Part shown: piece after piece, positions 32,217-61,258 of the stretch
How the letters are laid out: the number at the start of each line of letters is the position of its first letter
Numbering within the stretch: position 1 is the first letter of the stretch
DNA from: a virus
IMG/VR virus record: IMGVR_UViG_3300031525_000001
Location: 122,276 to 186,275 of that record
Length of the DNA stretch: 64,000 nucleotides
Reading direction: 5' to 3' (one strand)
The notes under the pieces: model-generated
Told to the model about the DNA's origin: nothing
Seen by the model: only the letters and a program-made list of their open reading frames with translations
The model's database searches: none
Program-made: the position numbers and the translations under genes

Positions 32217-32783
32217 ATGATTTACGTAGCTTCTCACGCTGTCGATGGAAAAATTAAGCGATACATCGGACAGACAACTTGGCCTTTGGAAAGGCGACGT
32301 AACCGACATGAGTGTCTTGCCCTTCGCTGCGGTAGTAAGACGTATTTCCACAATGCCCTCAGGAAATATGGTCTAAATTCATTTGAATGGGACGCTCTAA
32401 CTCTCCCCATACAGGACAAGGAAGAACGAAACGCTCAGGAGAAGCTGTTTATCCAATTGTTTCGTTCTCATGATCCCGAATGCGGCTACAACCTCACCCT
32501 CGGAGGCGAGGGCGGAATTCCTACGACGATAACACGTAGAAAATTGAGTGAAGCTAGAAACCGCAGGGTTATAAGTGAGGCAACTCGTCAAAGAACGAGG
32601 CAGTCCATGATGGGTAAGAAGAATGCCCTCGGCGTCGTACAGTCGGAGGAAGCCCGTAGAAATACAAGCTTAGCCCTCAAGGGCAAGCCCAAATCGGAAT
32701 CGCATCGTCGCAACATTGGCATCGCTCGAAAGAAAAAGTTTGACATTTTCCCAACTTCCAGTATCATAAATATTGGCGATTAA
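32217..32783 (+). CDS. GIY-YIG homing endonuclease
   Basis: 188 aa from the ATG at 32217; the longer frame upstream runs through the tRNA-like element and is spurious. MIYVASHAVDGKIKRYIGQTTWPLERR (GIY/YIG and catalytic Arg), ALRKYGLNSFEW, the Glu in EKLFIQLFRS and GYNLTLGGEGG are all present. The basic tail resembles that of the enzyme at 395-1015. It is placed immediately after a tRNA-like segment, a frequent homing site. Confidence 0.9.
   Translation: MIYVASHAVDGKIKRYIGQTTWPLERRRNRHECLALRCGSKTYFHNALRKYGLNSFEWDALTLPIQDKEERNAQEKLFIQLFRSHDPECGYNLTLGGEGGIPTTITRRKLSEARNRRVISEATRQRTRQSMMGKKNALGVVQSEEARRNTSLALKGKPKSESHRRNIGIARKKKFDIFPTSSIINIGD
32751..32775 (+). promoter_or_regulatory. ACTTTC-type motif at the end of the GIY-YIG gene
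   Basis: AACTTCCAGTATCATAAATA within the last codons of the endonuclease gene, about 90 bp upstream of the 219-aa gene. Confidence 0.45.
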
Positions 32784-40226: not shown

Positions 40227-40292
40227 ATGCTGCTGGACCGAACGTGTTACCCAGAGACCCCCAAAACCACAGAAAACAGGGCATTTTCGTGA
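40227..40292 (+). CDS. 21-codon leader frame coupled to the next gene
   Basis: ATG at 40227 follows the promoter-like motif's GGGG. Its TGA (40290-40292) overlaps the GTG start at 40289 (GTGA), so the leader probably delivers ribosomes to the main gene. Confidence 0.4.
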   Translation: MLLDRTCYPETPKTTENRAFS

Positions 40293-42130
40293 AAATCGTC
40301 ATCGCCGACAAGCTGCCACAGGAACACTCTACCGAATTTCGGGGTCTCCCTGTTATAATTGAGTGGCCGAAGGGAAGCACCCGCGTCGGTAAGAAACCTG
40401 ACGGTACGTCGTTCAAAACAGAGATGAAAGTCGATTACGGCTACATCCCCGACACGACGGCAACCGGGGATAAGGAGAATCTCGACATCTACAGGGGTCC
40501 CAACGAAGATGCCGAATATGCCTACATTGTTGAGCAAAACACACCTGATGGAGAGTTCGACGAGTACAAAGTGATGCTGGGGTTCGACACACTAGAGGAA
40601 GCTGAAAAGGCGTACATTGGGCAAGCGGGCGAAGAACTGCTGGGCGACATCTCCGAGGTCGATTTCGAGTACCTGTTCGACACGGTGAAGGCGAAACAGA
40701 AGGACGCCGCCGCCAAGAAGCAGGCTGCAAACGAAGACCTTCAGTGGCGGATCACGGGCGATTCGACAATGTTCGATATCAACGGTCTAGACGCGAGCGG
40801 GGAGCGGCAGGGTGGTGCAAGCGTATACCGCACCCGATACAAAGGCGAGCCCGCCTATCGCCTAAAGTTCATCAGCGCACCGGAGCGTCGGAAAACCGGG
40901 CTGGGGCAGGAGATTTATGATCGGGCAATCGCCGAGGTAAAGCGCCGAGGAGCGAAGTATTTCCTGTCGGATGACCAACGCGACCCCGCTACCGCTGAGC
41001 CAGCGTGGGACCGACTCAAGAAACGGTATCCGGTCACGCATGATGAAAAGCAGAACCGTTATGTGATCGCTCTGACAGCGGCCGGTGAGAAGTACACGGT
41101 CATCGAAGCCTTTTTGAAGAACTACAAGCACGAGGTGGACTTCTACGATGAAGTCGCGCACCTCGTACAGGACAAATTGGATCAGGCTCTTCAGGATGCG
41201 GGGATCAAGGCGGTGGTTAGCTCCCGTGCGAAGACCCCAGATCGGCTGGGGAAAAAGCTGTACAAGCGAAATCAAAAGAGGAACTATAAGACGTTCCGCG
41301 ATATTGACGACGACATCATCGATTTAGCTGGCTGCCGTGTGGCGCTTTACATGCCAGCCGACCGCGATGCGGTTGGACAGATCATTGAAAAGTTATTCGT
41401 CCCCGTGCGACCCCCAAAGAGCTTCCCCGAAGCCAGCAAGCCCGAGGAAGGCGATACGCTGGGCTACACGGCAACCCACTATCTGGTGCGCCTGCGCCCC
41501 GAGACGCTCCGCAAGAAGGAGCTTCGGTACGCCGACACGCAGATCGAGATTCAGGTAGCATCCGTCCTGATGCACGCATGGGCCGAGGTCACGCACGACC
41601 TGCTTTACAAGCCCACAAAGGGCGGATTGACGCCCGAAGAGCACGAAACTCTGAGCAACCTGAATAAGTTAGTGCAGGAAGGGGAACGGGAGCTTGAAAA
41701 GCTTCAGTTCGCCATCGAAGGTCGCACGGATGAAAGCCTTCGGTTTGAAATTGCAGCAGCTTTGGCAACGAGTCTCAAAGCCCGGTCGATGGGAAAGACT
41801 GCCTCCCTGACCGTAGGCGACATTGAGACGGCTGTCAGAGCTATTGTTGGAAGCAAGACATCCCTGTGGTCGATTTACATGAAAGCCACGGAGACGCTCA
41901 GGAAAGCGCGTTGGGAAAAGCCCGACGATGAGAAGTACCGCAAAGCATGGGAAGCTGCTGGGTATCACAAGCCCGAGGAATCGCCCGCGAGTGAGACGCA
42001 TTACATTCGTGAGGCCATGGAGAGACTTGCTCCGGGTAAACCAGTCAGCACGCTGTGGGTTCTGCCAAACCGCAGTGAGGTTATAGCTCTTGCTCAACAG
42101 TTGAAAGCCGAGGCAACAAAGGAAAAATAA
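40289..42130 (+). CDS. polyvalent protein: InPase-like, GNAT-like and RelA/SpoT nucleotidyltransferase domains
   Basis: 613 aa from the GTG at 40289; an in-frame GTG at 40244 adds 15 unlikely residues. Residues 1-115 (KIVIADKLPQ...VDYGYIPDTTATGDKENLDIY) match the inorganic-pyrophosphatase-like module of phage polyvalent proteins. About 150-255 (SVYRTRYKGEPAYRLKFIS, RRKTGLGQEIYDRAIAEVKRRG) looks GNAT-like. About 285-470 is RelA/SpoT: DDIIDLAGCRVALY, LGYTATHYLVRL and IEIQVASVLMHAWAEVTHDL, the folds that transfer pyrophosphate to GTP/GDP or to tRNA CCA ends in toxic forms. A K-T-A element (MGKTASL) precedes a helical tail. A host-takeover or toxin role is inferred. Confidence 0.85.
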   Translation: MKIVIADKLPQEHSTEFRGLPVIIEWPKGSTRVGKKPDGTSFKTEMKVDYGYIPDTTATGDKENLDIYRGPNEDAEYAYIVEQNTPDGEFDEYKVMLGFDTLEEAEKAYIGQAGEELLGDISEVDFEYLFDTVKAKQKDAAAKKQAANEDLQWRITGDSTMFDINGLDASGERQGGASVYRTRYKGEPAYRLKFISAPERRKTGLGQEIYDRAIAEVKRRGAKYFLSDDQRDPATAEPAWDRLKKRYPVTHDEKQNRYVIALTAAGEKYTVIEAFLKNYKHEVDFYDEVAHLVQDKLDQALQDAGIKAVVSSRAKTPDRLGKKLYKRNQKRNYKTFRDIDDDIIDLAGCRVALYMPADRDAVGQIIEKLFVPVRPPKSFPEASKPEEGDTLGYTATHYLVRLRPETLRKKELRYADTQIEIQVASVLMHAWAEVTHDLLYKPTKGGLTPEEHETLSNLNKLVQEGERELEKLQFAIEGRTDESLRFEIAAALATSLKARSMGKTASLTVGDIETAVRAIVGSKTSLWSIYMKATETLRKARWEKPDDEKYRKAWEAAGYHKPEESPASETHYIREAMERLAPGKPVSTLWVLPNRSEVIALAQQLKAEATKEK

Positions 42131-42708: not shown

Positions 42709-45700
42709 ATGAACCCATTGCTTCGGAAGATAGCCAAACAGCCCGCGACCACGACCTCATTCTTTGAGACAGACGGCTTTCTCTATCACGGCACCACGTT
42801 ACGAGACCTCAAGTCCATCCTGACCGAAGGGAAGGTGGAGGGGCACAGCTATTGGGGCGTGAGGGAGACGGCGGACATGTATGAGGGCGGGGCCATGTTA
42901 CGGCTGCCCGTTAGCAGGTTCAACGAAGCCTTTCTACTCCCTGACGAGAACATGATTCAAGACCCGTATTTCATGGAAGACGAGAACGGGGATTACGATC
43001 AGAAGAAAATGAACGCCACGAATCGTGCGTGGAAGGCGAGCAAGAAGACGTGGATGGATTCGCTGAAGATTTGGGGAGCGGTCATGTACGATGAGGATAT
43101 GCCCGTCACACCAGCCGATGCTATCGAAGGTCGGCAGGTTATGGCGAGCAAGACCGCAACCGAGTTGCCGCCGCTTAAGTTCACCCAACCATCGGATAGG
43201 AAGCTCGAAGACTACGAGCTAGTTTGGGTTGATACGCAAAAGTTAGATCGCGAGTGGTCGAAGGACAAACACCTGTACCTCGCTCCGGGGGATAAAACCA
43301 ATCACATCGGCGACCGCTACGCTCGCTTTACCCAGTGGCGGCAGGACAACCCCAACACCCCAGTTGAGGCTCCTATTGTGTCGTGGAGCGACAATGCGGG
43401 TGGTGAGGCGCATTTCACCAACGGTCGGCACCGCTTCTCCGTGCTCCGCGATCAGGGTTACCCAAAGGTTCAAATCATGGTGCCGCAGAGCCAAATCGAG
43501 ACGTTCAGCAAACTGGCATCCTCTTCGGTACGGGAAATCAACATCTCGGAAGATCAGGGTTCCGCAGAAGGGTACACAGCGGACACCAATGCGGAACAAC
43601 TCCAGAATTGGCTCGACCGTTTCGGCTACACGAACAAAGAGTTTGTTGCCGACCTGCGGAAGAAGTATGACACCTTCGCCGTTCTAAACAACATCAACGT
43701 ATACGAGGATTCCCGTGGCAAGGGCTACGGGGACTATCTGCTTGCCGAGTTCTTGCGAGAAGCCGGGGATCGCGGTGCGGGCATCTGTCTGTTGGTTGCC
43801 GACACCGCTGAGGAACAAGCCCAAGGCTTCAATTTGGTGGAGTGGTACGAACGCAACGACTTTGAGCAGGTTGCCTCGGTCTACGGCGGGGAACTGATGA
43901 TAATGGGCATCATGAATCCCAAGGTTGCGGCACAGAAAACCGCCGCCGATATCGGTCAGGTCAAGAACATCATTAACGAAATGATGGGCGTGCTCGCTTC
44001 CGGGCTCCCGCATCCCGAAGTCAAGATCGTAAACCAGACCAACCGTATGCTGGGGTACGATGTGTGGGAACGGGGTAGGGATGAGGCGGGTAACACTTGG
44101 GGTGCGGACAACACCACAATCGGCATTCAGAAGTCCATACTGGGGCACGAGGAATCGCTTCGCCGTACTATCGCTCACGAACTGTGTCATCATGAAGTGG
44201 CTCTGCTTATTGGGAAGCCGAAACTCATGGAAGTCGGGTTCGACGCCTACAACAAATACAAAAAGCTACTCGCACCCGAGGGACACGGCAAAGAATGGCA
44301 GGCCGTCGCCGCTCGCTTCAATGCGAAGTACGGAGCGGACTTCGTGACCGAGTTCTCCGATCAGAGTGTCATCAGCGATGAGCCAACGAAAGAATACTGG
44401 CTCCTGCTCAATAACTACGTCTACGGTCGGCACAAGCAACGTTTGGGCTGGCAATGGGCGCTGGGGCTCAGCCGTCAGGCTATGGCGTACCTCGATGGAC
44501 TCGATTGGACTTCGGGAGAATTCAAGCTGGTCAAAACGAACGACCACGTGTTTACTCGTGGGCGTGGGCGTATCAAACAATACGGCGGATGGAATCTGCC
44601 CCGCACCCCAGAGCAGGAGCAGAAAATTCAGGACCTTTGGGCGAATGCTCCGATGGCGAAGTTCGGTTGTTCCGCCGCTCAGGATGAAGCCGACATTGAG
44701 GCAGCAAAGAAAGCCAAGTCAGGTCCCCACAAAAACGCCACGTCTCAAATCAACCTGCCGCCTGATGCCGCCTCCGGGATGATGGAAGCCGCCAAGCAGA
44801 TTCCAGATGAGGAACTCGGCAAGGATGGTCGTGAGGACGATCCACACATCACAGTTAAGTACGGGGTAAAGCCCGACCCCGCTCTGTTGAGTCAAGTTGT
44901 AGGCGAGCAGCAACCGTTTACGGTCACGCTAGGGAAGACGCACGTATTCTCCGTGAGCGAAAGCTCTGACGCCCAAGCCCCCATCGTGGTTCAGTGTCAC
45001 GCTCCCGAACTTGAGGCTCTCCACAACAAGGTCGCAGAAGCGATGGGCACCCGCAAAGATGATTTTCCCTACGTACCGCACGTGACCCTTGCCTACGTCA
45101 AGCCTGACGCTGCCGCCAAATATGAGGGAATGGATTGGGCCGAGGGCATTTCCTTCCAAGTGGACAGCATCACCCTGAGTACGAAGGGTGGTGGTCAGGT
45201 TCGAGTACCTTTCGGTAAGCCGCGAAAGTCAGCATCCCACAAGACGCCGCCGATGAGCGACACGCAGTACAGGAATCCCGAGATGGGCGAGGAGACGAAT
45301 GCTTACGCCGACATCCCCGAGCGTGTGATGGGTGTGGAAGACCTGCCGTCGCTTGAATCGCTTTCACCCGACCTGTTCAAGACGGGAGCGGGCAGCGTGT
45401 ACGATCTTGATTTACAGGACGTGGTTGCTTGGGGTGGTAGCCTCAGCGAGGCACAGGGCGATTGGGATAAGATCAGGTCCGAAGCCGCTGGACGTGCGAA
45501 AGCCGAAGGCAAGGATTGGGAGAAGATGCCCGAGGCTGAGCAGGAAGTGTGGCTCGACAAGATCGGCTGGGAGTGGCTCGGGGCGACATGGGAAATCACT
45601 ATGAATCGCCTTCAATCCCTGAAGTTCCCCCTCACGGTTTACCGTGGGCTGGGCTCGGTGAGCCTTAAGGAAATCAACAAGGGTCAATACGCGGAGAAGG

Positions 45701-48700
45701 GGACTGGCATCTATTGGTCCTACGACGAGAATAACGCCTATGTGCACGAAGAACTCGCTGCTGGGCACCCGCACATCGTAATCCTGCGTGGCGTCGTGAG
45801 TTCGCCCAAGCAGATCGACTGGATTCGCACTGCCTACGTGAACCTCGTGGCAGCCGATGAGCGGGAGATCAACATTCATCCGGGTGAAGAAATCCAGATC
45901 ACGGGCTACAAATACAAAGGTGAGAAGGCGTGGAAGAATCCGCCAAAGAACCTTCGCACAGTCCGTGCGGCAGCGCAGAACTTCAAGCCCATGCCGTTCG
46001 ACAACTGGTGTGACGCGAATCCGATGTACCAGCCAGACGATTTCAACGAGGCTGAGTACCGCTACGACGAGAATGTCGCCCACTTCAGCACAGTGGACTT
46101 CCCCATCACGATCTATCGTGCGGTTCAAGTTGAGCAGGGCACGCAACCGAATTTGGAAAAGGCGGGCGTCTATTGGACGTGGGTTGAGAACAGTGCCGAT
46201 GCGTACTTTGGCTCGGGGTCAATGTGGGATCAAGGTGGTCCGCACCCGAAACATCCTCAAACCTTGATCCTCAAAGCCAAGGTACTACGCTCAACCGATG
46301 TGGACTGGGACGCGACTCTTCTTGCTAACATGCTCAACGAAGATGAAAATGAGATCACAATTGAGTCGGGCGCTGAGCTTCAATTGATTGGTATCGATTA
46401 CGGGCAAGGCTATAAGAAGCCCGCTCAGAAAAGGGTCATGGCATACGGCGACGAATCCAAGAACCTGCCTTTGCGTGGTCAGAAGGGCATCGGCGGACAG
46501 GACTTCCCTCTGATGTTCGACCCGCCGTTGTTCTCCGATGAGAAGGAAGCCGCACGGAAGATGCCGAAGTTCTACCACGGCACGGCAGCGGAGAACCTCG
46601 ACGATATCCTAAAGAACGGCCTCAAAGCCAGTAAGGACGCTGCGTCGGCAAAGATGGGAATGTTTAATCCCAACCGAGCCAACGTACAGTACAAGTCTGA
46701 GCAGGGTGTAGGTGAGTGGCAGGGCTGGAACATTGATTTCAGTGCCGATCCAGTCAAGGAACACATGCTGCCCGCATCGTTCGTTCGGAAACTGAAGGGA
46801 ATCGAGCAGAAATTCATCAACGTCGCCGATGTGGTGGAAACGCAGGGCGAGCAATGGACAACTGACAGACGTGTGGACGAGATTCACACGCAGATGGAAG
46901 CGGAGAAGTGGTTCGAAGCCATCCTCGTAGATGAGTACGAAGACCAGCCGGGGAAATACTACTTGGAAGAGGGGCATCACCGCACCCGTGCGGCTAAGAA
47001 GATGGGCAAAACGACTATTCCAGCCGTGATTATGAAGTTGGAACCCCGTAAACCCCACTGGTCGTTATCGTCAGGTATCGTCAGAAAATCGTCAGATATC
47101 GCCAAGTTTGCGTTCTTCATCGAAGTGCCGAAAGAAACCCGTGGTCATTTCTGGGACGAGCCGCCCGCGCACAATCTGGAGTTCTGGGCATTCCGAAGCC
47201 GTCCGCCAGTCCTGATGAACGAGAAGGTTTACTTCACGTTCGACAAGATGCCTGTCGCAGAGACCACCGTCCTCAAGGTTGAGAAGCCGGGTGAGTCGTT
47301 GTGCGAACTGAGCGGCAAGTACGAAGACCACTGGAAGCTTTACTGGGAACCGAAGCAGTTTGTCAAGTATGCAGGCACCACAGCGCCTACGCTGTACCAT
47401 GGCACCTGCCCCGAGAACGCTGAAGCCATCATGAAGAACGGCTGGGGGCCGAATCAAGTCTCATCGGGCGGGAACGCTGGACAGCCGCAGTACCTCTATC
47501 TCACGAACTTCCCTGAGAATGCTCAGTGGTTCGCCAATGAGAAGGGGTGCGACACCATCCTTGAGGTCCGTAACATCCCGATGTCGTATCTCGAAGTTGA
47601 TCCTGAGGACGGCACTGAGGACACCATTGAGAGAGAATTGAACTTTAGCGAGAAGGCATTCCCCGGCACGGTTGTACTGACAAAGCCACTACCTGCGGAC
47701 CACTTCAAGGTGTTCAAGAGTAAGATCGGCAGCCTGAATGAGAAGCGGAATGAAAAGTGGATTTACCACCCTGACTATGGCGCGTTCTCGCAGAAGGGAA
47801 GCATAGGCCCTCATGCAACACTGATAGCGAGAACTATGGGTGAGGGCATGTCCTCTGGGCGGAAGTACGAAGAGGTACTACGGGGCTACGCGGTGATCGA
47901 CGTGGATCAGAAAACCGTGACCTTGGCAACCCCCACAAACGAGTTGATACCTAACGACGTGGTAGACCTGTTCAAAAAGACATATCCCCACTACGCCCTA
48001 TCGATCCCAGCGGAGTCGAAAGCAATCGGTGTGACCGCCGCCATGCCGAAGAAGTGGTATCACGGCACGTCCACGAAAAATGCCGAGATTATCATGGGGG
48101 ATGGTTACCTACGCCCAGATCAGGAGACCACCTACGACATCGACATCCCGCGTGACGGGGCGGTATACATCGCAGAGTTCGACGTAGCAAACCAGTACGC
48201 TATCGAGCGCGGCGGACCCGTGCTTGAGGTAGCCGCTCCTGACATCAGTAAGCTCCTGCCCGATGAGGACGATGTTTACGAACTCCTCAATGACCGTGGT
48301 GGTGAGTTGAACGCCAAGGGTTCCGCCCAAGCCAAGCGAGTTAAGGCTTTGTGGCTCAAGCAATGGAATGACGAGAATGCTTCCTACAATGAGCCCGAGA
48401 AGTTCCCGGTCTACAAAAACTTCGAGGAAGCGTGGAAAGCATGGGGCGAGATCGAGTTCGAGGGCTCGGCAGAGCTTGCGGAGCAGATGAAGTATCTGAC
48501 CGACTACATCGTCAAGAATGACCCCAAGCTCGCTCGTGCAATCATCGAACTCAGTGGCAAGGCCGCTCACATGGGACCGCTCAAGGTCGTGCGTCAAGTC
48601 AAGACCGCCGCACCGAAGTCCATCTGGTATCACGGCACCAGCATCAAGAATCTGCGAAGCATCATGAGTCAGGGGTTAGTTCCTGAAGGTACGGAAAAGG

Positions 48701-51700
48701 TTTGGGCAGACGATCCTGATGCTGGGATATCCGCACCCAGCCGTCAATCTTACGGCGGCATTTACGTGTCACAGAACCTCATGACGGCTGCGGGAGCCCC
48801 CGATACCGAGGATAGAAAGGCTCGCGGCGGCTCGCTCGTGGTTATCATGGAGCTTCAGCCGAACACCATGTACCTTGACGAGGACAACGTTACGGGGGTT
48901 CTCGGTGCTCCAATCAAGCACATGAGCGATAACACCTTCCACGTTCTCTGCTACTACTTGGCAGCTACACAGGAAGGCGCAACCCAAGACTGGCAGGATG
49001 AGATCAGGGTGATGCGGGAAGATTACGTCCGCAAGTGTTTCACGCAATGGGAAGCCAAGTTCGCTGAACGTAAGATGCCATTCCATCCCGAACTGAAGGC
49101 TGAGCTTGAGAAGCTCCTACCCAGCGTGTGGCTAGGTGCCGTCACCCGTGCGGCGGGTCACGTCAAGGACAACTACTCCTACATTCGGGCATGGGATCAA
49201 GTCTTCTACGGCACCCCTAAGGAGAAACAACGCCCCGACATGAACACCATACTCCCCGATGCGTCCGAGGGAGAGGCGGCGTTCCGCGAAGCGGCAGAGA
49301 AGGTCACCCGTACATTGCGGCTCCTAGCCCGTCCGAACACTGAAGGAAGCCAGACATACAACATTAACACCTCCCGCATCAATGAGCCGATTGGCTTCAG
49401 CGGGTCAAACCACATTCTCGCTCTCGTAGAAGTTCGGGACCTTGAAGTGCGGGCAACCCCATCGCCAGTTCGAATGCTTCTACACTGGGGCACCATCCCG
49501 CAGGATTTCTTCAGCCAGTGGAATACAAAGTACGGCAGCAAGTATGAAGTGGTGGACGCACGCAAGGGTCAGCCCAAGGCTAAGGGCGTGGCGGCATCGG
49601 CTCACGAAGACGATCCTCAGGTCTTCTACCACGGAACCTCGTGGCAGGCCGCTCAACTGATCGACAAGGAAGGTCTGAAAGCGAGCGACAACCGTCTGAC
49701 AGGCGGCAAGAAATACATCTGGTGCGCCATCGCGGAGTTCGCGGCGAAGGAATACGGTGCGAGTGTGACGGACAGCGACCAGTACGCCGTGATCGAGTTC
49801 ATCTGGGATTACGGCAAGAGCGAGCCTGACCCGGAGCATTTCGAGGAAGGCGACATGTACCGTCGCATTGAGGGCGATATCTCTCGGCAGAACATCACCG
49901 CCATCAAGTATTTCGATGGTGGGCGGATCGTCAAGACGGCTGGGTTTGAGGAAGAAATCAAGATCACCACGGCACCAGACGGGCGAATTACCGCCAAACA
50001 CGTCGATGGAAGTGCTTCCGGCACCATGGAAGACCGCGAGGGGCTGGTTAAGTGGTTTGATTGGAGCACTTTACCCAAAGGTGGGGCTGGAATTTACGAC
50101 AAAGCCTTCGTTTTGGGCACCGTAAGCGTCAAGGTCGCGACACGTCGTAATGGGCTCGGCAGGGCGCTTGTAGGGGCTGTGCTCGACGCAGCGAAGGCTC
50201 AGGGTGCCCAAGTGTGCTTCTTGCTCGCTCATTCGCTCACAGGGCTCTCTGGGAAGGAATTAAGCTCCTTCTACAACAGTCTGGGGTTCCAGCCCTACGT
50301 GATCGACCCGCCGCCACGATGGTTCGACAGCAGCACCGCAGGCATCTTCATGAAGAAGCTGGCAGGCGTGGCAAAGCTCGCCGCCATGAACCGCATTAGC
50401 CAGCAGGACGCCGTTGACCGCAAGATGTTCGGCCCTGTCTACCATGGCACCACCGAGGAGAAGCAGGAGAACATCGGGAACGAGGGCTTCAAGGTCTACA
50501 TCGGGGACGCGGGATCGGGCGACGTTGCCCACGGTTACGAAGGTAACCAACCCTACCATGACGGCATCCCAGCCCCCGTGCACCATCTGGGTTACGGCGT
50601 GTACTTCACGACCGCCAAGGCTATCGCCAAGCAGTTCGCAGGCGGCACCACGCGGGGCATGAAGACCTACTACCTCGACGTGCCACGGCTGGAGACCATC
50701 AACTTCGGAGTGCCGAAGACCATGATGAAATGGTGGATCAGTCAGGGCTACAACGCGGACCTCGCCAAGAAGAATCGCGTGGAAGCGACCAAGCCGATGA
50801 CCGAGCACCTGAAGGCTCAGTTTGACGCCGTATGGTTCAAGGGCAAGGGCATGTACAAGCTGCTCGACGGCGATCAGATTTGTGTGTTTGACGCGAGCCA
50901 CATCTATGAAGTGGACGCTGCCATGTCTAAGCCGGGTGACATCGGCTCCAAGGTCACTCGTAAGGCTGATGGGATGAAGGGTGTCATCAAGAACATCCGC
51001 AGCATTCCGCCTGATGTGGCACAACAGTATCACGGTGGGGCTGACAAGTTCTACGAGATCAAGTGGGCGAAGGGCGGCACCGACCATAACGTCTATGCCC
51101 GCGACATAGACTTCGTTGGGGCGAAGGCTCAAGGTGCAACGGCGTCGATGAAGATCGCCGAAGGATTCAATAATGAGGGCTTCTGGGCGGGCGAGGGTAA
51201 CGCCGCGTCTGGCGTGCTGCCGATCTGCACCACCACTGGTCGCATCTGTCTCGCGTGGCGGTCACCCGATGTTCACATCGGCAATTGCTGGGGCACCATC
51301 GGTGGAGCGGTCAAGCCAAAGATGAGCCTCGCGGACAGTGCCAAGGCCGAACTAACGGAAGAGACGGGCTTCACGGGCGGCATCACCATGCACCCAGCTT
51401 ACGTATTTTCAAAGGGCGGCTTTTCCTATCACAACTTCCTCGGCACCGTGGGTACGGAGTTCCGCTTCGCCCCGCAGTCCGAACATCACTGGGAAACCAC
51501 GGGTCTAGAATGGTTCACGTGGGTAGATATTCAGGAGATGGTGAAGGATAACGCCAGCGATTTCCACCCGGGACTCATCAGTTTGTTCAAGAGCGACGGC
51601 AAGAAGATCGAGCAGCTTCTCGGTAAGCCCAAGACGGCTTCGGACGACGACGGGGATATGCCGAACATGCTTCAGGTCTTCCCCGAACGTCCCGATGTGA

Positions 51701-54360
51701 TGGAGACTTTCCGCCACATGCGTCTGTTTGAGCGTGACCGTTTGATCGAGGAAGCTCAACTTGAAGAATTACATCCAGCCGATCTGAAGACGAATCAGGC
51801 GACCCTCAAGCGGAAAGACCTCCAGTATTTCTTGGACAACCCCGAGGAGATCACCAAGCCGCACAGCAATGTCGGGCTGAGTGACACGGAGCAGTTGTAC
51901 CCCCTCGTGTGCCGCACCACCGAAGGCGATTGGCTGTACGACGGCAACCACCGCGCAAACGCCGCCATGAAGCTCGGCATCTTGCTCAAGTGCAAGGTCG
52001 TGGACCTACGAGATTACGAGGAGCCACGGGGGAAAGTCTCCCGAAAGCTCGCTGCTCGCGGTGAAGTGGGTCCTGTGTATCACGGCACCGATAAGAAATT
52101 CGACAAGTTCGAGCAGAAACCCGGCACCCGATACATTCTCTTCTCCGAGATTAAGGTACAAGCTGGTGGGTTCTTCTTCACCGATGACCCTGAGGAAGCG
52201 AAAGAGTTCGGCTCAAACGTCATGACCTGCTACTTGAAGATGAAGAAGCCACTGATTCGGCAAGAAGATCAATACAATCTGAGCAAGAAACAGATCGCCG
52301 ACCTGACTTACATCTGCGAGCTATGTATGAGTGACGGCTATTCCGACTTGCAAGGCAATTCCGTCAAGACGATTGAACTGGGAGCCTTTGCCATCGATGT
52401 AGACCCAGAAGGCAACTGGCTCAACGAGATTGTGAAGCAGAACGGCCTCGATTGGAACATTTTGGACAATCAGGAAGCCGTCAACCGCATGAAGGAACGC
52501 GGCTACGACAGCACCATGGTGGATGAGTACAACGGCAAGTATAGCTATTGCGTGTTTTCAGCCGACCAGATTAGGATCGGCGGCGGTAAAGCAAAGGCGT
52601 TGACCGCAGCCACACCAGCCCGAGCCCTCAAGCTCTATCACGTCACGACAGTGCCTATTGCCAAAGACATCAAAGCTCACGGCTTCAAGCCCGTGGATCA
52701 AGGTATGTGGAAGAACTACTACGCTCCGCAGGGACGCGACGGCATCTACTTTTACGACGATTTGAAATACTCCGAGGCTTACGCCGCCTACGCTGAGGGT
52801 CAACTCTTCACACGCAACATGCAGCCAGAGAATTCGTGGGAAGAAAACAAGAAGCAAATACCTCAGATGGCAATCATTGAAGTACAGGTTCCCGAAGGCG
52901 TGGCAATCACCACCGACCAGAAGGAGGATGGGTTCTTCGTACCTACAGCCGATCTGGGTAAGGTCAAGATCACGGGTATGCACAAGTACGATTACGTCCC
53001 TACCGAGGGCAGGAAGCCCGGTGAGAAGTTCGGGGCAGCCTTCCCAACCTTCGAGCAGGTGATGGACGAATCCACCTTGGCTGATGACGAATTCATGTTT
53101 GGCAGCGACGAGGAAAGCAAACGCTGGTACGATCAGGCGTTGGCGTTCTGGAAATCCCAAAAGTTCCCGCTCACGGTGTATCGCGGCATGGCTGTTTTCA
53201 ACGAGCGTCATGACATTGACTACAGCACCTTCGGTTGGTCATGGTCTTTGGATAGGAAGTTTGCCGAGAACTTTGCGGAAGATAAGTACATCGACTACCC
53301 CGATCAACACCGCATCGAGGTCTTCGAGGGTAAGATCAAAGCGAACGCTGTGGACTGGCTTAACACCTTCAGGGCATGGGTCACTCTCCCCGAAGAGAAG
53401 GAAGTCCGCCTCAAGCCCAAGGCTCAGGTCGAACTCCCAGCGTTAGGCCGATCCGTGACCGCTGCCGATCTTCCTCGTAGCAAGTACGACAAGGTTTGCT
53501 ACACTATCGCCATGGACGATGCGCTGTACGGCTACTTCGGTCAATACGTGCAGTGTGCCGACGCCTTTGAGGACAACCCAGCGGCATCCGGTCGAGTGGT
53601 TGAGTTGGTCAAATCACTCACGCCATTCGTACCGCCGACTACTCGAAAGTGCCTCTATCGTGGGGAAGAGATTCGCATGGGCGACGACCGCGAGCCCGCC
53701 AAGTGGGAGCCACATCTTCGAGACCTGTTGTCTTGGTCGGCAGCTTACGACACCGCCAAGGGATTCTCGGGCGGACATCGGGGCATCGTGTGGCAGACCG
53801 TGGGCAAGATTCAAGGTATCGCTCTGGAGGATATCGTTCTTTGGCGTAATCGAACGCACCCCGATGAAAGCAACTATCCGGGTATGCAGTCCGAGTGGTT
53901 TGTGATGAATACCTGCAACGCGAAGGAAGCAACCCCGCCCAACGCACAGCCAGCCCGAAGCTATGTGACCGCTGCGGCTGATGGGTTCCTTTACCACGGC
54001 ATGAGCATGACGGACTACAATCGAGCCATGAGTGCTGGCGGCGTACTGCCTGAGCCTAGCTGGTGGGGCACCGCTGAGATCGCCGAGTATTACGCTGAGA
54101 CCGCTGCCGAAGAGATTGGACCCGAGGAAGAATACAAGGTTATCAAGTTACCACTCAGTGCATTCAACCCCGCGTTGCTGGAGGCCGACCAGAACTCGGT
54201 TGCTGAGCCTCTGACCTACACGCTTGGTCGTAGTGAAGATGAGTTGTATGAGGAATGGCAGAACTGCAAGGGTACGTGGCAAGACAGCCTGAGAATTTAT
54301 GGGAGCGTTGTCTACAACGCCCCCATTGAGGTCACCGCACAAACCGTCCTTTCTTCTTAG
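42709..54360 (+). CDS. 3883-aa polyvalent protein with about 14 ADP-ribosyltransferase-like modules
   Basis: One uninterrupted frame. Modules (residues): ART-like (YHGT 26); ParB-like (175-270); GNAT (275-403); SprT-type metalloprotease, H490-E491-x-x-H494 with GHGKEW at 525; 2H phosphoesterase, H713-x-T and H791-x-T; ART with YRG 978-980 and E1051-x-E1053; ART with YRA 1136-1138 and E1213-x-E1215; ART (YHGT 1289) joined to ParB-like (GHHRTRAAKKMG, about 1423); PUA/ASCH-like (1467-1557); ARTs at 1562, 1783, 1973, 2306; GNAT (2413-2555); ART 2578; Nudix (box 2864-2886, GGAVKP...ELTEETGF); ParB-like (2983-3106, DGNHRANAA); ARTs at 3123, 3309, 3490 (E3563-x-E3565), 3650, 3761. Short K/V-T-A elements join most modules. 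Likely injected or early-acting cargo modifying host targets. Confidence 0.9.
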   Translation: MNPLLRKIAKQPATTTSFFETDGFLYHGTTLRDLKSILTEGKVEGHSYWGVRETADMYEGGAMLRLPVSRFNEAFLLPDENMIQDPYFMEDENGDYDQKKMNATNRAWKASKKTWMDSLKIWGAVMYDEDMPVTPADAIEGRQVMASKTATELPPLKFTQPSDRKLEDYELVWVDTQKLDREWSKDKHLYLAPGDKTNHIGDRYARFTQWRQDNPNTPVEAPIVSWSDNAGGEAHFTNGRHRFSVLRDQGYPKVQIMVPQSQIETFSKLASSSVREINISEDQGSAEGYTADTNAEQLQNWLDRFGYTNKEFVADLRKKYDTFAVLNNINVYEDSRGKGYGDYLLAEFLREAGDRGAGICLLVADTAEEQAQGFNLVEWYERNDFEQVASVYGGELMIMGIMNPKVAAQKTAADIGQVKNIINEMMGVLASGLPHPEVKIVNQTNRMLGYDVWERGRDEAGNTWGADNTTIGIQKSILGHEESLRRTIAHELCHHEVALLIGKPKLMEVGFDAYNKYKKLLAPEGHGKEWQAVAARFNAKYGADFVTEFSDQSVISDEPTKEYWLLLNNYVYGRHKQRLGWQWALGLSRQAMAYLDGLDWTSGEFKLVKTNDHVFTRGRGRIKQYGGWNLPRTPEQEQKIQDLWANAPMAKFGCSAAQDEADIEAAKKAKSGPHKNATSQINLPPDAASGMMEAAKQIPDEELGKDGREDDPHITVKYGVKPDPALLSQVVGEQQPFTVTLGKTHVFSVSESSDAQAPIVVQCHAPELEALHNKVAEAMGTRKDDFPYVPHVTLAYVKPDAAAKYEGMDWAEGISFQVDSITLSTKGGGQVRVPFGKPRKSASHKTPPMSDTQYRNPEMGEETNAYADIPERVMGVEDLPSLESLSPDLFKTGAGSVYDLDLQDVVAWGGSLSEAQGDWDKIRSEAAGRAKAEGKDWEKMPEAEQEVWLDKIGWEWLGATWEITMNRLQSLKFPLTVYRGLGSVSLKEINKGQYAEKGTGIYWSYDENNAYVHEELAAGHPHIVILRGVVSSPKQIDWIRTAYVNLVAADEREINIHPGEEIQITGYKYKGEKAWKNPPKNLRTVRAAAQNFKPMPFDNWCDANPMYQPDDFNEAEYRYDENVAHFSTVDFPITIYRAVQVEQGTQPNLEKAGVYWTWVENSADAYFGSGSMWDQGGPHPKHPQTLILKAKVLRSTDVDWDATLLANMLNEDENEITIESGAELQLIGIDYGQGYKKPAQKRVMAYGDESKNLPLRGQKGIGGQDFPLMFDPPLFSDEKEAARKMPKFYHGTAAENLDDILKNGLKASKDAASAKMGMFNPNRANVQYKSEQGVGEWQGWNIDFSADPVKEHMLPASFVRKLKGIEQKFINVADVVETQGEQWTTDRRVDEIHTQMEAEKWFEAILVDEYEDQPGKYYLEEGHHRTRAAKKMGKTTIPAVIMKLEPRKPHWSLSSGIVRKSSDIAKFAFFIEVPKETRGHFWDEPPAHNLEFWAFRSRPPVLMNEKVYFTFDKMPVAETTVLKVEKPGESLCELSGKYEDHWKLYWEPKQFVKYAGTTAPTLYHGTCPENAEAIMKNGWGPNQVSSGGNAGQPQYLYLTNFPENAQWFANEKGCDTILEVRNIPMSYLEVDPEDGTEDTIERELNFSEKAFPGTVVLTKPLPADHFKVFKSKIGSLNEKRNEKWIYHPDYGAFSQKGSIGPHATLIARTMGEGMSSGRKYEEVLRGYAVIDVDQKTVTLATPTNELIPNDVVDLFKKTYPHYALSIPAESKAIGVTAAMPKKWYHGTSTKNAEIIMGDGYLRPDQETTYDIDIPRDGAVYIAEFDVANQYAIERGGPVLEVAAPDISKLLPDEDDVYELLNDRGGELNAKGSAQAKRVKALWLKQWNDENASYNEPEKFPVYKNFEEAWKAWGEIEFEGSAELAEQMKYLTDYIVKNDPKLARAIIELSGKAAHMGPLKVVRQVKTAAPKSIWYHGTSIKNLRSIMSQGLVPEGTEKVWADDPDAGISAPSRQSYGGIYVSQNLMTAAGAPDTEDRKARGGSLVVIMELQPNTMYLDEDNVTGVLGAPIKHMSDNTFHVLCYYLAATQEGATQDWQDEIRVMREDYVRKCFTQWEAKFAERKMPFHPELKAELEKLLPSVWLGAVTRAAGHVKDNYSYIRAWDQVFYGTPKEKQRPDMNTILPDASEGEAAFREAAEKVTRTLRLLARPNTEGSQTYNINTSRINEPIGFSGSNHILALVEVRDLEVRATPSPVRMLLHWGTIPQDFFSQWNTKYGSKYEVVDARKGQPKAKGVAASAHEDDPQVFYHGTSWQAAQLIDKEGLKASDNRLTGGKKYIWCAIAEFAAKEYGASVTDSDQYAVIEFIWDYGKSEPDPEHFEEGDMYRRIEGDISRQNITAIKYFDGGRIVKTAGFEEEIKITTAPDGRITAKHVDGSASGTMEDREGLVKWFDWSTLPKGGAGIYDKAFVLGTVSVKVATRRNGLGRALVGAVLDAAKAQGAQVCFLLAHSLTGLSGKELSSFYNSLGFQPYVIDPPPRWFDSSTAGIFMKKLAGVAKLAAMNRISQQDAVDRKMFGPVYHGTTEEKQENIGNEGFKVYIGDAGSGDVAHGYEGNQPYHDGIPAPVHHLGYGVYFTTAKAIAKQFAGGTTRGMKTYYLDVPRLETINFGVPKTMMKWWISQGYNADLAKKNRVEATKPMTEHLKAQFDAVWFKGKGMYKLLDGDQICVFDASHIYEVDAAMSKPGDIGSKVTRKADGMKGVIKNIRSIPPDVAQQYHGGADKFYEIKWAKGGTDHNVYARDIDFVGAKAQGATASMKIAEGFNNEGFWAGEGNAASGVLPICTTTGRICLAWRSPDVHIGNCWGTIGGAVKPKMSLADSAKAELTEETGFTGGITMHPAYVFSKGGFSYHNFLGTVGTEFRFAPQSEHHWETTGLEWFTWVDIQEMVKDNASDFHPGLISLFKSDGKKIEQLLGKPKTASDDDGDMPNMLQVFPERPDVMETFRHMRLFERDRLIEEAQLEELHPADLKTNQATLKRKDLQYFLDNPEEITKPHSNVGLSDTEQLYPLVCRTTEGDWLYDGNHRANAAMKLGILLKCKVVDLRDYEEPRGKVSRKLAARGEVGPVYHGTDKKFDKFEQKPGTRYILFSEIKVQAGGFFFTDDPEEAKEFGSNVMTCYLKMKKPLIRQEDQYNLSKKQIADLTYICELCMSDGYSDLQGNSVKTIELGAFAIDVDPEGNWLNEIVKQNGLDWNILDNQEAVNRMKERGYDSTMVDEYNGKYSYCVFSADQIRIGGGKAKALTAATPARALKLYHVTTVPIAKDIKAHGFKPVDQGMWKNYYAPQGRDGIYFYDDLKYSEAYAAYAEGQLFTRNMQPENSWEENKKQIPQMAIIEVQVPEGVAITTDQKEDGFFVPTADLGKVKITGMHKYDYVPTEGRKPGEKFGAAFPTFEQVMDESTLADDEFMFGSDEESKRWYDQALAFWKSQKFPLTVYRGMAVFNERHDIDYSTFGWSWSLDRKFAENFAEDKYIDYPDQHRIEVFEGKIKANAVDWLNTFRAWVTLPEEKEVRLKPKAQVELPALGRSVTAADLPRSKYDKVCYTIAMDDALYGYFGQYVQCADAFEDNPAASGRVVELVKSLTPFVPPTTRKCLYRGEEIRMGDDREPAKWEPHLRDLLSWSAAYDTAKGFSGGHRGIVWQTVGKIQGIALEDIVLWRNRTHPDESNYPGMQSEWFVMNTCNAKEATPPNAQPARSYVTAAADGFLYHGMSMTDYNRAMSAGGVLPEPSWWGTAEIAEYYAETAAEEIGPEEEYKVIKLPLSAFNPALLEADQNSVAEPLTYTLGRSEDELYEEWQNCKGTWQDSLRIYGSVVYNAPIEVTAQTVLSS

Positions 54361-58015: not shown

Positions 58016-58530
58016 TAGATGCCGTCCTTCGCCGCTTTGGTTTTGAATTCTTTGGCGTTGTCGTAGATGCAGAGGACACCCAGATGCTCGGTGTTGCTGA
58101 GGATCATGGTGAAATCTTTGCCGCGATAGGTGGTGTCGCTCGCCCACTTAAATTCTCCCCACGGACGATCCGTGCAATCCTGTATTGGGAGATCATTCCC
58201 CAAGTTATGGAGGACTCTATTGAATTCCTCATCGTAGCCGAAGTATTCGTAGATTCGCTTCCGAAGTAGGTTGTACCCATTCAGGAGCGGGAATCCAGTT
58301 GATGTCGGCATGAGTTTTGAGTCTGACAGAGTGAGGCCGAAGCTGTCAAGCCAAAGCTTGATGTAGCTCAGCACTTTCGTGCCCGCCCACTTCGCCCGCA
58401 GGATTTGCTCGGGTGTCAACTTGGTGACATCTTCGAGGGTCTCGCAACCCAGTCGCTTCAGAACGTTTTTTGCTCTGGTCGGCAGGTTGCTCGATTTCTC
58501 AACACTGATCGCTAATACGTAGGCATCCAT
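58015..58530 (-). CDS. RNA polymerase alpha-CTD-like protein
   Basis: 171 aa, ATG at 58530 with AAGGAG and a minus-strand TAGAAT. Residues about 14-70, LPTRAKNVLKRLGCETLEDV, then TKLTPEQILRAKWAGTKVLSYI, follow the helix-hairpin-helix pattern of the bacterial alpha C-terminal domain (L-S-x-R-A-x-N-x-LK...L...TE-x-x-L...NFG-x-KSL-x-EI). That domain binds UP elements, activators and sigma. The rest of the protein is unknown. A phage copy could act with the sigma-like factor, or compete with host alpha. Confidence 0.65.
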   Translation of the reverse strand: MDAYVLAISVEKSSNLPTRAKNVLKRLGCETLEDVTKLTPEQILRAKWAGTKVLSYIKLWLDSFGLTLSDSKLMPTSTGFPLLNGYNLLRKRIYEYFGYDEEFNRVLHNLGNDLPIQDCTDRPWGEFKWASDTTYRGKDFTMILSNTEHLGVLCIYDNAKEFKTKAAKDGI

Positions 58531-58550
58531 AGTGTTCTCCTTGCACCTCT

Positions 58551-58556
58551 ATTCTA
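58551..58556 (-). promoter_or_regulatory. minus-strand extended -10 TGG-TAGAAT
   Basis: TTGGTAGAATAGAGG on the minus strand, 20 bases before the ATG at 58530, which has its own ribosome site. Confidence 0.5.
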
Positions 58557-58560
58557 CCAA

Positions 58561-59004
58561 GGGAACCCGAGTTTTAGCTAGGAATTTGTGGCTTTAGAAT
58601 CAAAGACTTACCAGAAAAGCCAAGGGGACACCCATGAGGTGCCCCCAAGCGAAAAGATTAAGAGCCACTGGGCGGATTCCTGACTACCACCCAAGCCTTA
58701 GCTAACGCATCGTTGTTCGGTCACAACCGTATTCGGGGATCAGCCGAACACTCGCCTTGCGGCTGGTTGGGAGGATTGGGTGCCTCCAGTCGGATACAGA
58801 TGTCAGTGTCGATTTGACGATTTGTCCGAGTCTTACGGGGGTCGATCTTGGCCAAGATCGCCTTCTTCAACCTTACAACGCATTAACTGTACCACCAGAC
58901 GGCACTCTCTTCGCTTTTCAGCGGCACCGCCCGAGCTTTAGTCCCTCATCAAGGACTTGTTCAGCCACGTGGCTCACATAGAGTAATACTGAAAGTCGGA
59001 ACTA
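58561..59004 (-). ncRNA. about 430-nt structured non-coding region with phage promoter and terminator
   Basis: No coding frame over 80 codons fits. On the minus strand it begins with GACTTTCAGTATTACTCTAT (about 58980-59000), one of the best copies of the ACTTTC-type motif, and ends in a hairpin GGGGGCACC/GGGTGTCCCC (58624-58646) followed by TTGGCTTTTCTGG. Between are several inverted repeats: GCCACGTGGC, AGTCC/GGGACT, the palindrome CGATCTTGGCCAAGATCG (58847-58864), GGAGG/CCTCC and GTTCGG/CCGAAC. A structured phage RNA is likely; class unknown. Confidence 0.5.
58624..58646 (-). terminator. hairpin ending the minus-strand non-coding transcript
   Basis: Nine-pair stem with a five-base loop; the following minus-strand sequence is only moderately T-rich (CTTTTCT). 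Confidence 0.5.
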
Positions 59005-59403
59005 TTTGGATTTGAATTTTGTGGAAAACGGGGTGACCCTCACAACGACAGCCGGGACGGTGCCGAAGCCTAGCCGCTCCCACGCGACGATTCGGTGGTG
59101 CCCGTCCAGTACGGTAAGCTGCCCGTCCTTCAGTTGCAGCCAAACGGCCTCGAACTCCCCGCTGATCTTGATGCGCTTTACCAGATCAGTCACCTCTCCG
59201 TCGAACAGGGGTGTGTCCCACCTCCATTTGCCTCCGTCCGCTGGGTTCCGCTCGATTGAGGTGAGGAGCACGTCTTGGTTTTCTATGGCTAGGTTGGTCT
59301 GGTTCGAGAGGTAGAGAGACCTGAGATTGAACCATGCGACGGACCTGCGGCGAGTGTGGTCCGAGAAAGGATCGACGTAGGAGACTACGAAGGGCTCGTA
59401 CAT
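59002..59403 (-). CDS. ParB/Srx-like domain protein
   Basis: 133 aa, ATG at 59403, overlapping the HD gene end. LKDGQLTVLDGHHRIVAWERLGFGTVPAVVVR is the G-H-H-R loop of ParB/sulfiredoxin-fold proteins, which in ParB binds CTP. The domain also occurs three times within the giant protein. No HTH is present, so partition is unlikely. Confidence 0.7.
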   Translation of the reverse strand: MYEPFVVSYVDPFSDHTRRRSVAWFNLRSLYLSNQTNLAIENQDVLLTSIERNPADGGKWRWDTPLFDGEVTDLVKRIKISGEFEAVWLQLKDGQLTVLDGHHRIVAWERLGFGTVPAVVVRVTPFSTKFKSK

Positions 59404-60017
59404 AGCCTATCCAATTCCCGCTGCATATTCTCCCGAGCCAAGAGGGTGTACGCCCCGGCGAACTGAGGGCTGAAGTAAAGCTGCGGTCTGGCGAGAAATC
59501 TCTTCAGGAATGCCAATCGGCCAGCCTTCCACATCTCATCGCTGGCGAAGTTGTACTCCACGCGGATGAGGCGGGTGTTCTCGTCGTATTCCTCGGGAGG
59601 CAGCCCCAGTCCCGCGAGGTCGATATCGGTCACAAGGTTGGTGTGCTCGGTGTGAGTGGTGCTGAGAATGAGGCTGATGATCTTGTCGGCATCTTCCACA
59701 TCGAACCCCAGTACGGGGTTGTCCTTCTCGAAAACCATTGCGCTGCGAGCTTCGTTGTCGTCGCGGGTAGGCTCGTAAACCGCATCATGGTAGACCCACG
59801 CGAAGAAGGTAATGGGGCTCATTTTGTCGAAAAACTTGAAGTATTCGCTGAAGCCAAACTGGATATGCCCCAGTGTGTGATAATGGCGGTGGGGCTCAAG
59901 GTAGCGATTCATCAACGCCTTCCATACGTACCCGATTCTGATATCGGTGGGGCAGCACCTTCCCGCACGGGGAGCCGTCCGAACGAAGTCCGAGAATCTC
60001 AGGGTGTCAATCGCCAT
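59385..60017 (-). CDS. HD-domain hydrolase-like protein
   Basis: 210 aa, ATG at 60017 under a leaderless TATTAT. RHYHTLGHI (His), FFAWVYHDAVYEP (His-Asp), DNEARSA, and TTHTEHTN...DIDLAGLG (Asp) match the predicted metal-dependent HD superfamily often found in phages and bacteria. Substrate could be a nucleotide; unknown. Confidence 0.75.
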   Translation of the reverse strand: MAIDTLRFSDFVRTAPRAGRCCPTDIRIGYVWKALMNRYLEPHRHYHTLGHIQFGFSEYFKFFDKMSPITFFAWVYHDAVYEPTRDDNEARSAMVFEKDNPVLGFDVEDADKIISLILSTTHTEHTNLVTDIDLAGLGLPPEEYDENTRLIRVEYNFASDEMWKAGRLAFLKRFLARPQLYFSPQFAGAYTLLARENMQRELDRLCTSPS

Positions 60018-60024
60018 ACCCTAT

Positions 60025-60030
60025 ATAATA
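60025..60030 (-). promoter_or_regulatory. minus-strand extended -10 TGG-TATTAT, leaderless
   Basis: ATGGTATTATATAGGGT on the minus strand, seven bases before the ATG at 60017. Confidence 0.55.
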
Positions 60031-60037
60031 CCATGTT

Positions 60038-61258
60038 TTAGTAGTCTTGCTGGATCATCGCCTGCGTGAACGCGATCTTGGATGTAACCGCCGCCGTCGA
60101 TGTGAGTCCGACCACCATGTACGCCCCCACAATGCTCGTTGTCGGAGTGTGAGTCGTAATCGTCGCGACGAGAACCCCATCAATGTAAAACTGTACGTTC
60201 GGCACGCTGTCATTGCAGATGATTACGAACCTGTGGGATTTCGTGTCCGCCGTCACCCCAGAACTAACTACGGTCTGCGTGGTGCCGTCGCTAGTCACGC
60301 ACTGCCATGCTGTATCTCCCGCGACAGTCGAAAATCTGAACGCCGCGTACTGGTTGGCGTGTAACGTGTCAGAACCGAAGATGGTTGTCGTGGACAGGGT
60401 GCTGTCAAACATTCCAACCCACACACGTTCCGTCACCAATTGAACGAGGTATAAATCAACAAACAGACTGAGGTTAGCTCCGTCGAACCACCAAGGCAGG
60501 AAGGTGTTGTTCGTCGAGCTTTGGTAACCGCCCGGGGTTGCAACGCCCGTTGACTGATACCAGTAGGACGCAGCTTGCTGGCTGGCGGCAACAGGAGCCG
60601 TCGCGCCGAAGGCCCCGCCGATAGCAAGACCCGAATCTTGAATCGCGGCTGGTCCCGCTGACCCAGATAGGTAGTGGGTCGCAGTCTTGCGTGCGCCCAC
60701 CAGTGTGCCGCCGCCAGTGGGGTCTTGCCAAGTCGCTACGAGGACAGGCGGCGAGCCCACGGCTACCGCAGTCAGAACTTGTCCCACGGTTGGGGGTATG
60801 CTGCTGACTGACGTACCATAAAGCATGTTGGCGTTGATGGTGCCATTGGAAAATGTCAGGACGCCGCCTAGACCCACGGTCAGCGTGGTTGTGCTGGGGA
60901 AATTTCCTGTGATTTGGCTAAAGTCGGTCGAACCGCCGCCTCCCCCACCACCGCTGGCATGGACGAGCAAAGACCCAGTGATGGCTCCATCGGGACCTAG
61001 AACAACCACTTTTCCTGCGTCGGATGGGTCTGGGGTCGGAGGGGAATTGACGGTGCCCGCAGTTGCGCCAACAAGCGTCTCTTGGATTAGGCCGCTTGGG
61101 AGGACGATCAGTTTGGCTAATTGGAAGTCGTTGACGAACTTCATAAACTGGGCGGTAGCATCGCAGCACTGATACAGCGCCCCCGCCTGCGTGTTGTATT
61201 GCGGGTACATCTGCTTGAACCGCTCAATGAGCGACTTGAGTTGTCTCGATACCAGCAT
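60038..61258 (-). CDS. tail-fibre-like protein with C-terminal lectin-like domain
   Basis: 406 aa, ATG at 61258 with GGAGGAAG. N-terminal helical segment (1-60), a Gly run (HASGGGGGGGSTDFSQITGN) and repeat-like beta parts, then a C-terminal jelly-roll-like domain (WVGMFDSTLS, YAAFRFSTVAGDTAWQCV, DTKSHRFVIICND, VQFYIDGVLVATI) resembling concanavalin/LamG lectins. Likely a receptor-binding fibre. Separate locus and strand from the 21.6-24.8 kb fibre set. Confidence 0.75.
   Translation of the reverse strand: MLVSRQLKSLIERFKQMYPQYNTQAGALYQCCDATAQFMKFVNDFQLAKLIVLPSGLIQETLVGATAGTVNSPPTPDPSDAGKVVVLGPDGAITGSLLVHASGGGGGGGSTDFSQITGNFPSTTTLTVGLGGVLTFSNGTINANMLYGTSVSSIPPTVGQVLTAVAVGSPPVLVATWQDPTGGGTLVGARKTATHYLSGSAGPAAIQDSGLAIGGAFGATAPVAASQQAASYWYQSTGVATPGGYQSSTNNTFLPWWFDGANLSLFVDLYLVQLVTERVWVGMFDSTLSTTTIFGSDTLHANQYAAFRFSTVAGDTAWQCVTSDGTTQTVVSSGVTADTKSHRFVIICNDSVPNVQFYIDGVLVATITTHTPTTSIVGAYMVVGLTSTAAVTSKIAFTQAMIQQDY

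Follow-up and report, generated by a model that had tools for sequence, protein, structure and literature searches.

A soil jumbo phage gene joining about 13 ADP-ribosyltransferase-type modules to other enzymes in one chain, a candidate head-packaged polyprotein

The giant reading frame and its surroundings

The DNA analysed here (the window, 64,000 nucleotides) is the final 64 kb of a 186,275-b IMG/VR virus record, whose source is a soil jumbo phage and which also encodes a terminase, a sheath protein and a head protease. Positions 42709-54360 of the plus strand hold a single open frame of 3883 codons, hereafter P0001. The sole isolated relative found is the Tunturiibacter phage Tunturi_5 (PP885688.1), a jumbo myovirus of Acidobacteriota with a genome of 308.7 kb (PMC11924767). 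The modules of P0001 and two other genes are listed in window coordinates; an arrow in a linker marks a guessed cut after Ala, sequence alone being unable to place it.

3999-9770 (+): DarB-like large protein with 7 linker motifs, related to Tunturi_5 gp350 (by eye)
40244-42130 (+): polyvalent fusion of an InPase and a RelA/SpoT-type (p)ppGpp synthetase, one K-T-A-S linker, just upstream of P0001
42709-54360 (+): whole candidate polyprotein frame P0001, 3883 aa
42709-42735 (+): N-terminal tag MNPLLRKIA, putative head-targeting propeptide
42751-43149 (+): ART1 (YHGT), paralogue of ART14, weak evidence
43150-43512 (+): ParB-like 1 (GxHR, by eye), then linker SKLA↓SS at 43507-43524
43519-43929 (+): GNAT 1, in L012 directly after the N-terminal tag
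43930-44676 (+): SprT-like metallopeptidase-type module, HELCHH, linker KVAAQKTAAD before it
44677-45234 (+): 2H phosphoesterase (2_5_RNA_ligase2/LigT), then linker RKSA↓SH
45235-45969 (+): ART2 (YRG), R / W-S / E-x-E conserved, linker VRA↓AAQ at end
45970-46443 (+): ART3 (YRA), R / W-T / E-x-E conserved
46540-46644 (+): ART4 remnant, PARP-like start only, truncated relative to L012
46726-47103 (+): ParB-like 2
47113-47373 (+): small PUA/ASCH-like module (putative name), kept in relatives, linker VKYA↓G at end
47374-47703 (+): ART5 (YHGT)
47704-48033 (+): small domain X1, then linker GVTA↓AM
48040-48609 (+): ART6 (YHGT), linker VKTA↓AP at end
48610-49596 (+): ART7 (YHGT, Tpt1/KptA-like start, helical insert), linker GVAA↓SA at end
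49597-49941 (+): ART8 (YHGT), linker VKTA↓GF at end
49942-50382 (+): GNAT 2, linker AKLA↓AM at end
50383-50928 (+): ART9 (ART-PolyVal like)
50929-51159 (+): small KOW-like module (name by eye), linker MKIA↓EG at end
51160-51639 (+): NUDIX, homologous to part of Tunturi_5 gp273, linker PKTA↓SD at end
51640-52053 (+): ParB-like 3 (DGNHR, by eye), linker RKLA↓AR at end
52054-52608 (+): ART10 (ART-PolyVal, over the Pfam cut-off)
52609-53028 (+): ART11 (YHVT), fold match PARP/MbcT/Tpt1
53029-53463 (+): ART12 (YRG), R / W-S / E-x-E conserved, linker SVTA↓AD at end
53464-53973 (+): ART13 (YRG), R / S-W-S / Q-x-E conserved, linker YVTA↓AA at end
53974-54357 (+): ART14 (YHGM), paralogue of ART1

The start of the protein encoded just upstream of P0001 resembles Tunturi_5 gp272 (by eye), and in Tunturi_5 too the gene that comes next encodes a protein of the P0001 kind. 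This upstream gene gave a weak PADLOC match to PDC-S33; for P0001 PADLOC returned no match. The DarB-like protein is probably another head-packaged protein. GIY-YIG-like endonuclease frames were seen by eye at window positions 317-1015 and 32127-32783 and at record positions 31314, 86204, 93998, 104189 and 120573, one endonuclease VII/HNH gene lies at window positions 13143-13667, and a run, read by eye, of sugar-nucleotide/glycosyltransferase-like genes, one of them GDP-mannose 4,6-dehydratase-like, occupies record positions 107680-120241.

An earlier note on this DNA, made from the letters alone, had described one continuous chain and named concatenation of several genes as what would undo that claim. 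Concatenation by assembly is rejected because the P0001 frame recurs letter for letter in two more IMG/VR contigs (L010 and L011) and related frames stand in others; the single frame is thereby confirmed. One of these related proteins, from L012, is a continuous frame of 5484 aa that is 86% identical to P0001, while the L013 frame is broken (4132 + 577 aa) and that of L014, in a 455-kb contig, is spread over three adjacent frames; all three share gene context with P0001. The dN/dS ratio between P0001 and the L012 protein was 0.09-0.11 overall and 0.02-0.23 in the orthologous modules aligned, and every module so aligned is under purifying selection. Concatenation and decay are excluded for all modules but one.

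The ART modules and their companions

Fourteen ART start motifs were located in P0001, at aa 26, 977, 1135, 1289, 1563, 1784, 1974, 2307, 2578, 3124, 3310, 3490, 3650 and 3762. The earlier note had counted about 14 ARTs, which stands for 13 ART-type modules and fails for ART4 (aa 1289), a 35-residue remnant. At the same point the L012 protein has about 1800 additional residues, which begin in the middle of this ART and match ART-PolyVal, GNAT and PARP, so that P0001 looks like a deletion derivative there. We accept about 13 ART-type modules and one truncated remnant, roughly ten of the modules being well or fairly supported. The number had also been called exceptional, a claim that falls: a Pseudomonas aeruginosa prophage polyvalent protein with 12 ARTs (WP_023121221.1) has been published by Iyer et al. 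in 2017 (PMC5512222), and the ART count alone is consequently not new.

Six or seven of the ART modules have family or fold support, and four (ART2, ART3, ART12 and ART13) carry a complete R-S/T-(E/Q)xE signature, with R, W-[ST] and E-x-E conserved across 19 homologues in ART2, ART3 and ART12, and R, S-W-S and Q-x-E conserved across 4 homologues in ART13. These four gave no credible Pfam or PDB profile match to known R-S-E ARTs, and profile comparison of the YRG family with ART13 revealed no link. The profiles of ART5, ART6 and ART7 are linked to one another, and the best PDB match of each is Tpt1/KptA, at weak E-values (0.06-0.76). The features of the ART superfamily (H in strand 1, Y in strand 2, ART fold) were found by family in ART7, ART9 and ART10 and by fold in ART11; support is weaker for ART5, ART6 and ART8 and weakest for ART1 and ART14, which are joined by a local profile link (69%). 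P0001 has no Alt-family match, and its linkers are of the K-T-A-A kind, not the gp21-type x-x-E.

Structure prediction left most modules, the ART12 and ART13 folds among them, unresolved: AlphaFold models of aa 3108-3883 and 1550-2412, built on alignments of 4-5 rows, had mean pLDDT values of 36 and 44, and a fold search with the second model returned helical noise. ART11 was the sole module with a usable model, of fair confidence (~70 pLDDT), and Foldseek listed PARP13, PARP10, MbcT and Tpt1 first for it (best E 0.022).

The same note had described a phage polyvalent protein in which ARTs are interleaved with GNAT, ParB-like, SprT-like, 2H and NUDIX domains, and family searches agree with this. 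Matches to ART-PolyVal, PARP, Tpt1/KptA, 2H, NUDIX and GNAT (twice) passed the family cut-offs; ParB_N and SprT fell below them in P0001, where the HExxH is intact, and the SprT module of one relative passes. Besides the ARTs the chain holds a dozen small domains, namely two GNATs, a 2H, a NUDIX, a SprT-like and three ParB-like modules together with smaller ones, and with at least two domains of unrelated activity in one chain it is a polyvalent protein. The PUA/ASCH-like domain of the earlier note corresponds to a small module that is kept in relatives, and its name has no HMM support. That note's suggestion that the chain may both write and erase modifications is compatible with the presence of NUDIX and 2H modules.

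Linker motif, start tag and head proteins

The new point, which the earlier note missed, lies in the linkers: K-[TS]-A-[AS] recurs in them, the chain starts with a tag of the LL-x-K-T-A kind, and head proteins carry the motif as well. Together these features suggest a protease-processed polyprotein, not one working enzyme. The border pattern in P0001, K/V-[TLS]-A-[AS], appears as SKLA↓SS, QKTA↓AD, RKSA↓SH, VKYA↓G, GVTA↓AM, VKTA↓AP, VKTA↓GF, AKLA↓AM, MKIA↓EG, PKTA↓SD, RKLA↓AR, SVTA↓AD and YVTA↓AA. In the clade's giant proteins K[TS]A[AS] was observed 62 times against 4.2 expected from shuffles; other first residues in place of K mostly gave 0.2-3 fold, with V at 4.7 fold. For KTA[AS] the count was 49 against 1.9 expected in 18 giants. 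The motif also marks the points at which related chains diverge in homology, 24 of 102 breakpoints lying no more than 8 aa from a copy (4.8 +/- 2.2 under circular shift; 0 of 5000 shifts reach 24). In the L012 protein, for example, the tag MNPLLQMKTAA is joined directly to the module that in P0001 comes after KLAS. The results should be read with some caution, since p-values are optimistic for a motif that was noticed before being tested: motif and tag were both spotted by inspection, and the grouping of head proteins in the phage's own genome was made post hoc. The strict motif is absent at several borders (ART3/ART4, ART11/ART12, near aa 650, aa 1468), and some relatives have few copies (L014b, Tunturi_5 gp225).

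Start tags resembling that of P0001, commonly LL-x-K-[TS]-A, recur in other giants, and a K-x-A lies within the first 22 aa of 10 of 25 giant or polyvalent proteins, as against 1 of 73 Tunturi_5 tail proteins and enzymes. The relatives in Tunturi_5 lie in or beside head/tail clusters, gp321 between the head-tail connector and tail genes and gp273 after a 'minor head' gene; nearness or fusion to virion genes is a mark of polyvalent proteins. By protein class, the motif is enriched in the head proteins of Tunturi_5 and not in its tail proteins or intracellular enzymes: K[TS]A[ASG] occurred 8 times in the head/virion-annotated proteins (1.0 expected), 4 times in tail proteins (2.2) and 5 times in intracellular enzymes (2.7). 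Counting KTA[AS], with a broader choice of head proteins, gave 8 against 0.8 for head, 2 against 0.8 for tail and 1 against 0.8 for enzymes; under a looser pattern the enzymes are also enriched, 1.9-fold. The motif or a close variant was found in the Tunturi_5 protease, scaffold-like protein, ejection protein and capsid N-terminus (LLKSAAGRQKLAAS), so that the putative site is shared with other head proteins of the same phage, as would be expected of a head-protease substrate.

A counterpart exists in phages of Mycobacterium cluster C, in which both the head protease and the capsid protein are homologous to those of the P0001 phage. In the cluster C1 phage LinStu, where the protease homologue is gp97, R[TS]A[AGS] occurred 10 times against 1.4 expected in the genes up to the capsid gene and once against 0.8 elsewhere. 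This suggests that a cut site could be predicted for cluster C1 mycobacteriophages, which would be testable in a well-studied host. LinStu (L146) gp82, gp88, gp96 and gp97 illustrate the concentration of R-T-A-G/R-T-A-A in head-region proteins. The uncultured phage LR745208 keeps KTAAG..KLAAS in its capsid N-terminus and shows a mild overall enrichment (6 against 2.8).

The capsid site is weaker as proof of cutting, because the homologous capsid of phage G has no copy of the motif at the corresponding position and because this stretch hardly varies within the clade. BcepSaruman, whose protease is a distant homologue, was dropped as a further example, the motif being absent in nearly all the head-region proteins examined. 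We regard the class comparison in Tunturi_5, the residue specificity and the mycobacterial counterpart as the strongest independent supports.

Processing of the chain and its alternatives

Since the joints mostly bear a motif that is concentrated in head proteins, the chain is probably packed in the head, cut and injected. We therefore hypothesize, and consider it fairly probable, that P0001 is a polyprotein which is packaged in the head, where the head maturation protease cuts it in trans, and which leaves the head together with the DNA. That it is packaged, cut and ejected, and what it targets, is what we infer; what was obtained here is the reading frame with its modules and the purifying selection on them, and the motif with its class-dependent enrichment and the breakpoints close to it. 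The phage would be a jumbo myovirus whose closest isolated relative found infects Acidobacteriota. P0001 would be made alongside the proteins of the head and enter the prohead core, probably by means of its short N-terminal LL-x-K-[TS]-A tag. The phage's own head maturation protease would then cleave behind the Ala in linkers of the form K/R/V-[T/S/L/V]-A↓[A/S/G], yielding some 19 pieces, each roughly 90-380 aa long. Among them would be the 13 ARTs, the 2 GNATs and the 2H, NUDIX, SprT-like and ParB-like modules; ejected together with the DNA, they would act on proteins and nucleotides of the host, modifying them during the first minutes of infection. The cut sites would also be the places where modules are gained, lost and swapped. 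With somewhat less assurance, we lean toward extending this to the clade, whose tailed phages would follow a true polyprotein strategy: up to 20-30 effectors encoded in one gene would stay fused, and perhaps inactive, while in the producing cell, the head maturation protease would separate them within the capsid by reading a portable K-T-A↓A code, and they would evolve through the exchange of cassettes at the cut sites.

The most serious competitor, which we nevertheless hold to be unlikely, is that the chain is packaged and ejected uncut and that K-T-A-A forms flexible linkers or motifs for docking to scaffold or capsid. The virion RNA polymerase of phage N4 is packaged uncut (PMC5512222), and a docking motif would likewise be enriched at borders and in head proteins; nevertheless, the specificity of the pattern (K, then T/S, A, A/S) and its presence in the protease and the scaffold-like protein fit a cut site better, and the mycobacterial phages with a homologous protease bear an R-T-A-G version. 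Cutting could instead be done by the chain itself, through its SprT-like HExxH metallopeptidase module, given that HELCHH modules occur in P0001, L012-L014, Tunturi_5 gp321 and some other relatives and that a processing role for such metallopeptidases has been proposed by Iyer et al. (PMC5512222). We judge this improbable. HExxH is missing from a relative of 3853 aa (L133:3047-14605) that carries 17 linker motifs along with GNATs, a cREC domain for cyclic-phosphate processing and three ART-PolyVal stretches, so the SprT-like module is unlikely to be the general cutter; Tunturi_5 gp273 and gp205 also lack HExxH, and the motif recurs in capsid, scaffold-like and protease proteins. Self-cutting as the sole mechanism is accordingly disfavoured by these motif-rich relatives.

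Still less probable is a cytoplasmic enzyme array that the infected cell makes but that never enters the virion: T4 ModA and ModB are examples of phage ARTs that do act without packaging, but the start tag and linker motif common to head proteins, and the head-gene neighbourhood in Tunturi_5, speak against it. An artefact, or a decaying pile-up of gene fragments joined by misassembly, might be read into the truncated ART4 and the split frames of L013 and L014; with the identical frame in two other contigs and the low dN/dS in the aligned orthologous modules, its probability is close to nil.

P0001 resembles the polyvalent proteins of Iyer et al. (PMC5512222) in combining unrelated enzymes in one chain (ART, GNAT, ParB-like, metallopeptidase and 2H, with an InPase as neighbour). 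Those authors proposed that such proteins are injected with the DNA, drew the analogy with RNA-virus polyproteins, and proposed embedded peptidases. P0001 differs in size, having about 23 modules (and the 5484-aa L012 protein more) as against the 2-15 reported, and in its repeated linker motif common to head proteins, at which the head protease, and not a peptidase embedded in the chain, would cut in trans. In T4, Alt (an ART) and IPI-III are packaged into the head by short N-terminal propeptides, which the prohead protease removes before ejection; Alt loses a propeptide of 7 residues, and for targeting 10 residues of IPIII are enough (PMC9026906). There each protein has its own gene, an end propeptide and gp21 sites, whereas P0001 has many modules in one chain with internal K-T-A-A type sites, and thus appears to extend the T4 logic from one propeptide per protein to many internal sites per chain.

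The prohead protease gp245 of the jumbo phage SPN3US cuts several head substrates, ejected proteins included, at an AXE motif, and N-terminal propeptides are lost by every substrate other than the protease itself (PMC10052503). This is the best studied jumbo case that we found, and it differs from P0001 in that only end propeptides are involved, no chain being reported to be split into many mature enzymes. P1 DarA and DdrB are head-packaged antirestriction proteins processed before or during head formation, the DarA N-terminus being cut by the prohead protease (PMC12810830, PMC5512222); they are separate proteins and not a multi-effector polyprotein with repeated internal sites. Related modules and the linker motif also occur in gp273, gp321, gp225 and gp205 of Tunturi_5, but as shorter chains (853-1489 aa) distributed over four genes.

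If the hypothesis is true, the processing of polyvalent phage proteins could be read from sequence, the linker code giving the module borders and the start tags marking proteins likely to be head-packaged, and the injected arsenals of jumbo phages could consequently be listed from genomes alone. DNA phages would then have arrived, with their capsid protease, at a polyprotein solution resembling the one used by RNA viruses, and nature would offer a model for packing many proteins into one phage head. Tunturi_5 is an isolate in which this could be tested.

Outside the window, at record positions 58026-60369 (L005:18026-20000 and on), a NAMPT gene (NAMPT_N + NAPRTase) adjoins a gene for a 313-aa protein whose C-terminal domain is a NUDIX and which is probably a fusion with an NMN adenylyltransferase. 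The two are likely an NAD+ salvage pair in a phage with many ARTs and could replace the NAD+ consumed by injected ARTs; Tunturi_5 gp217/gp218 are annotated like this pair.
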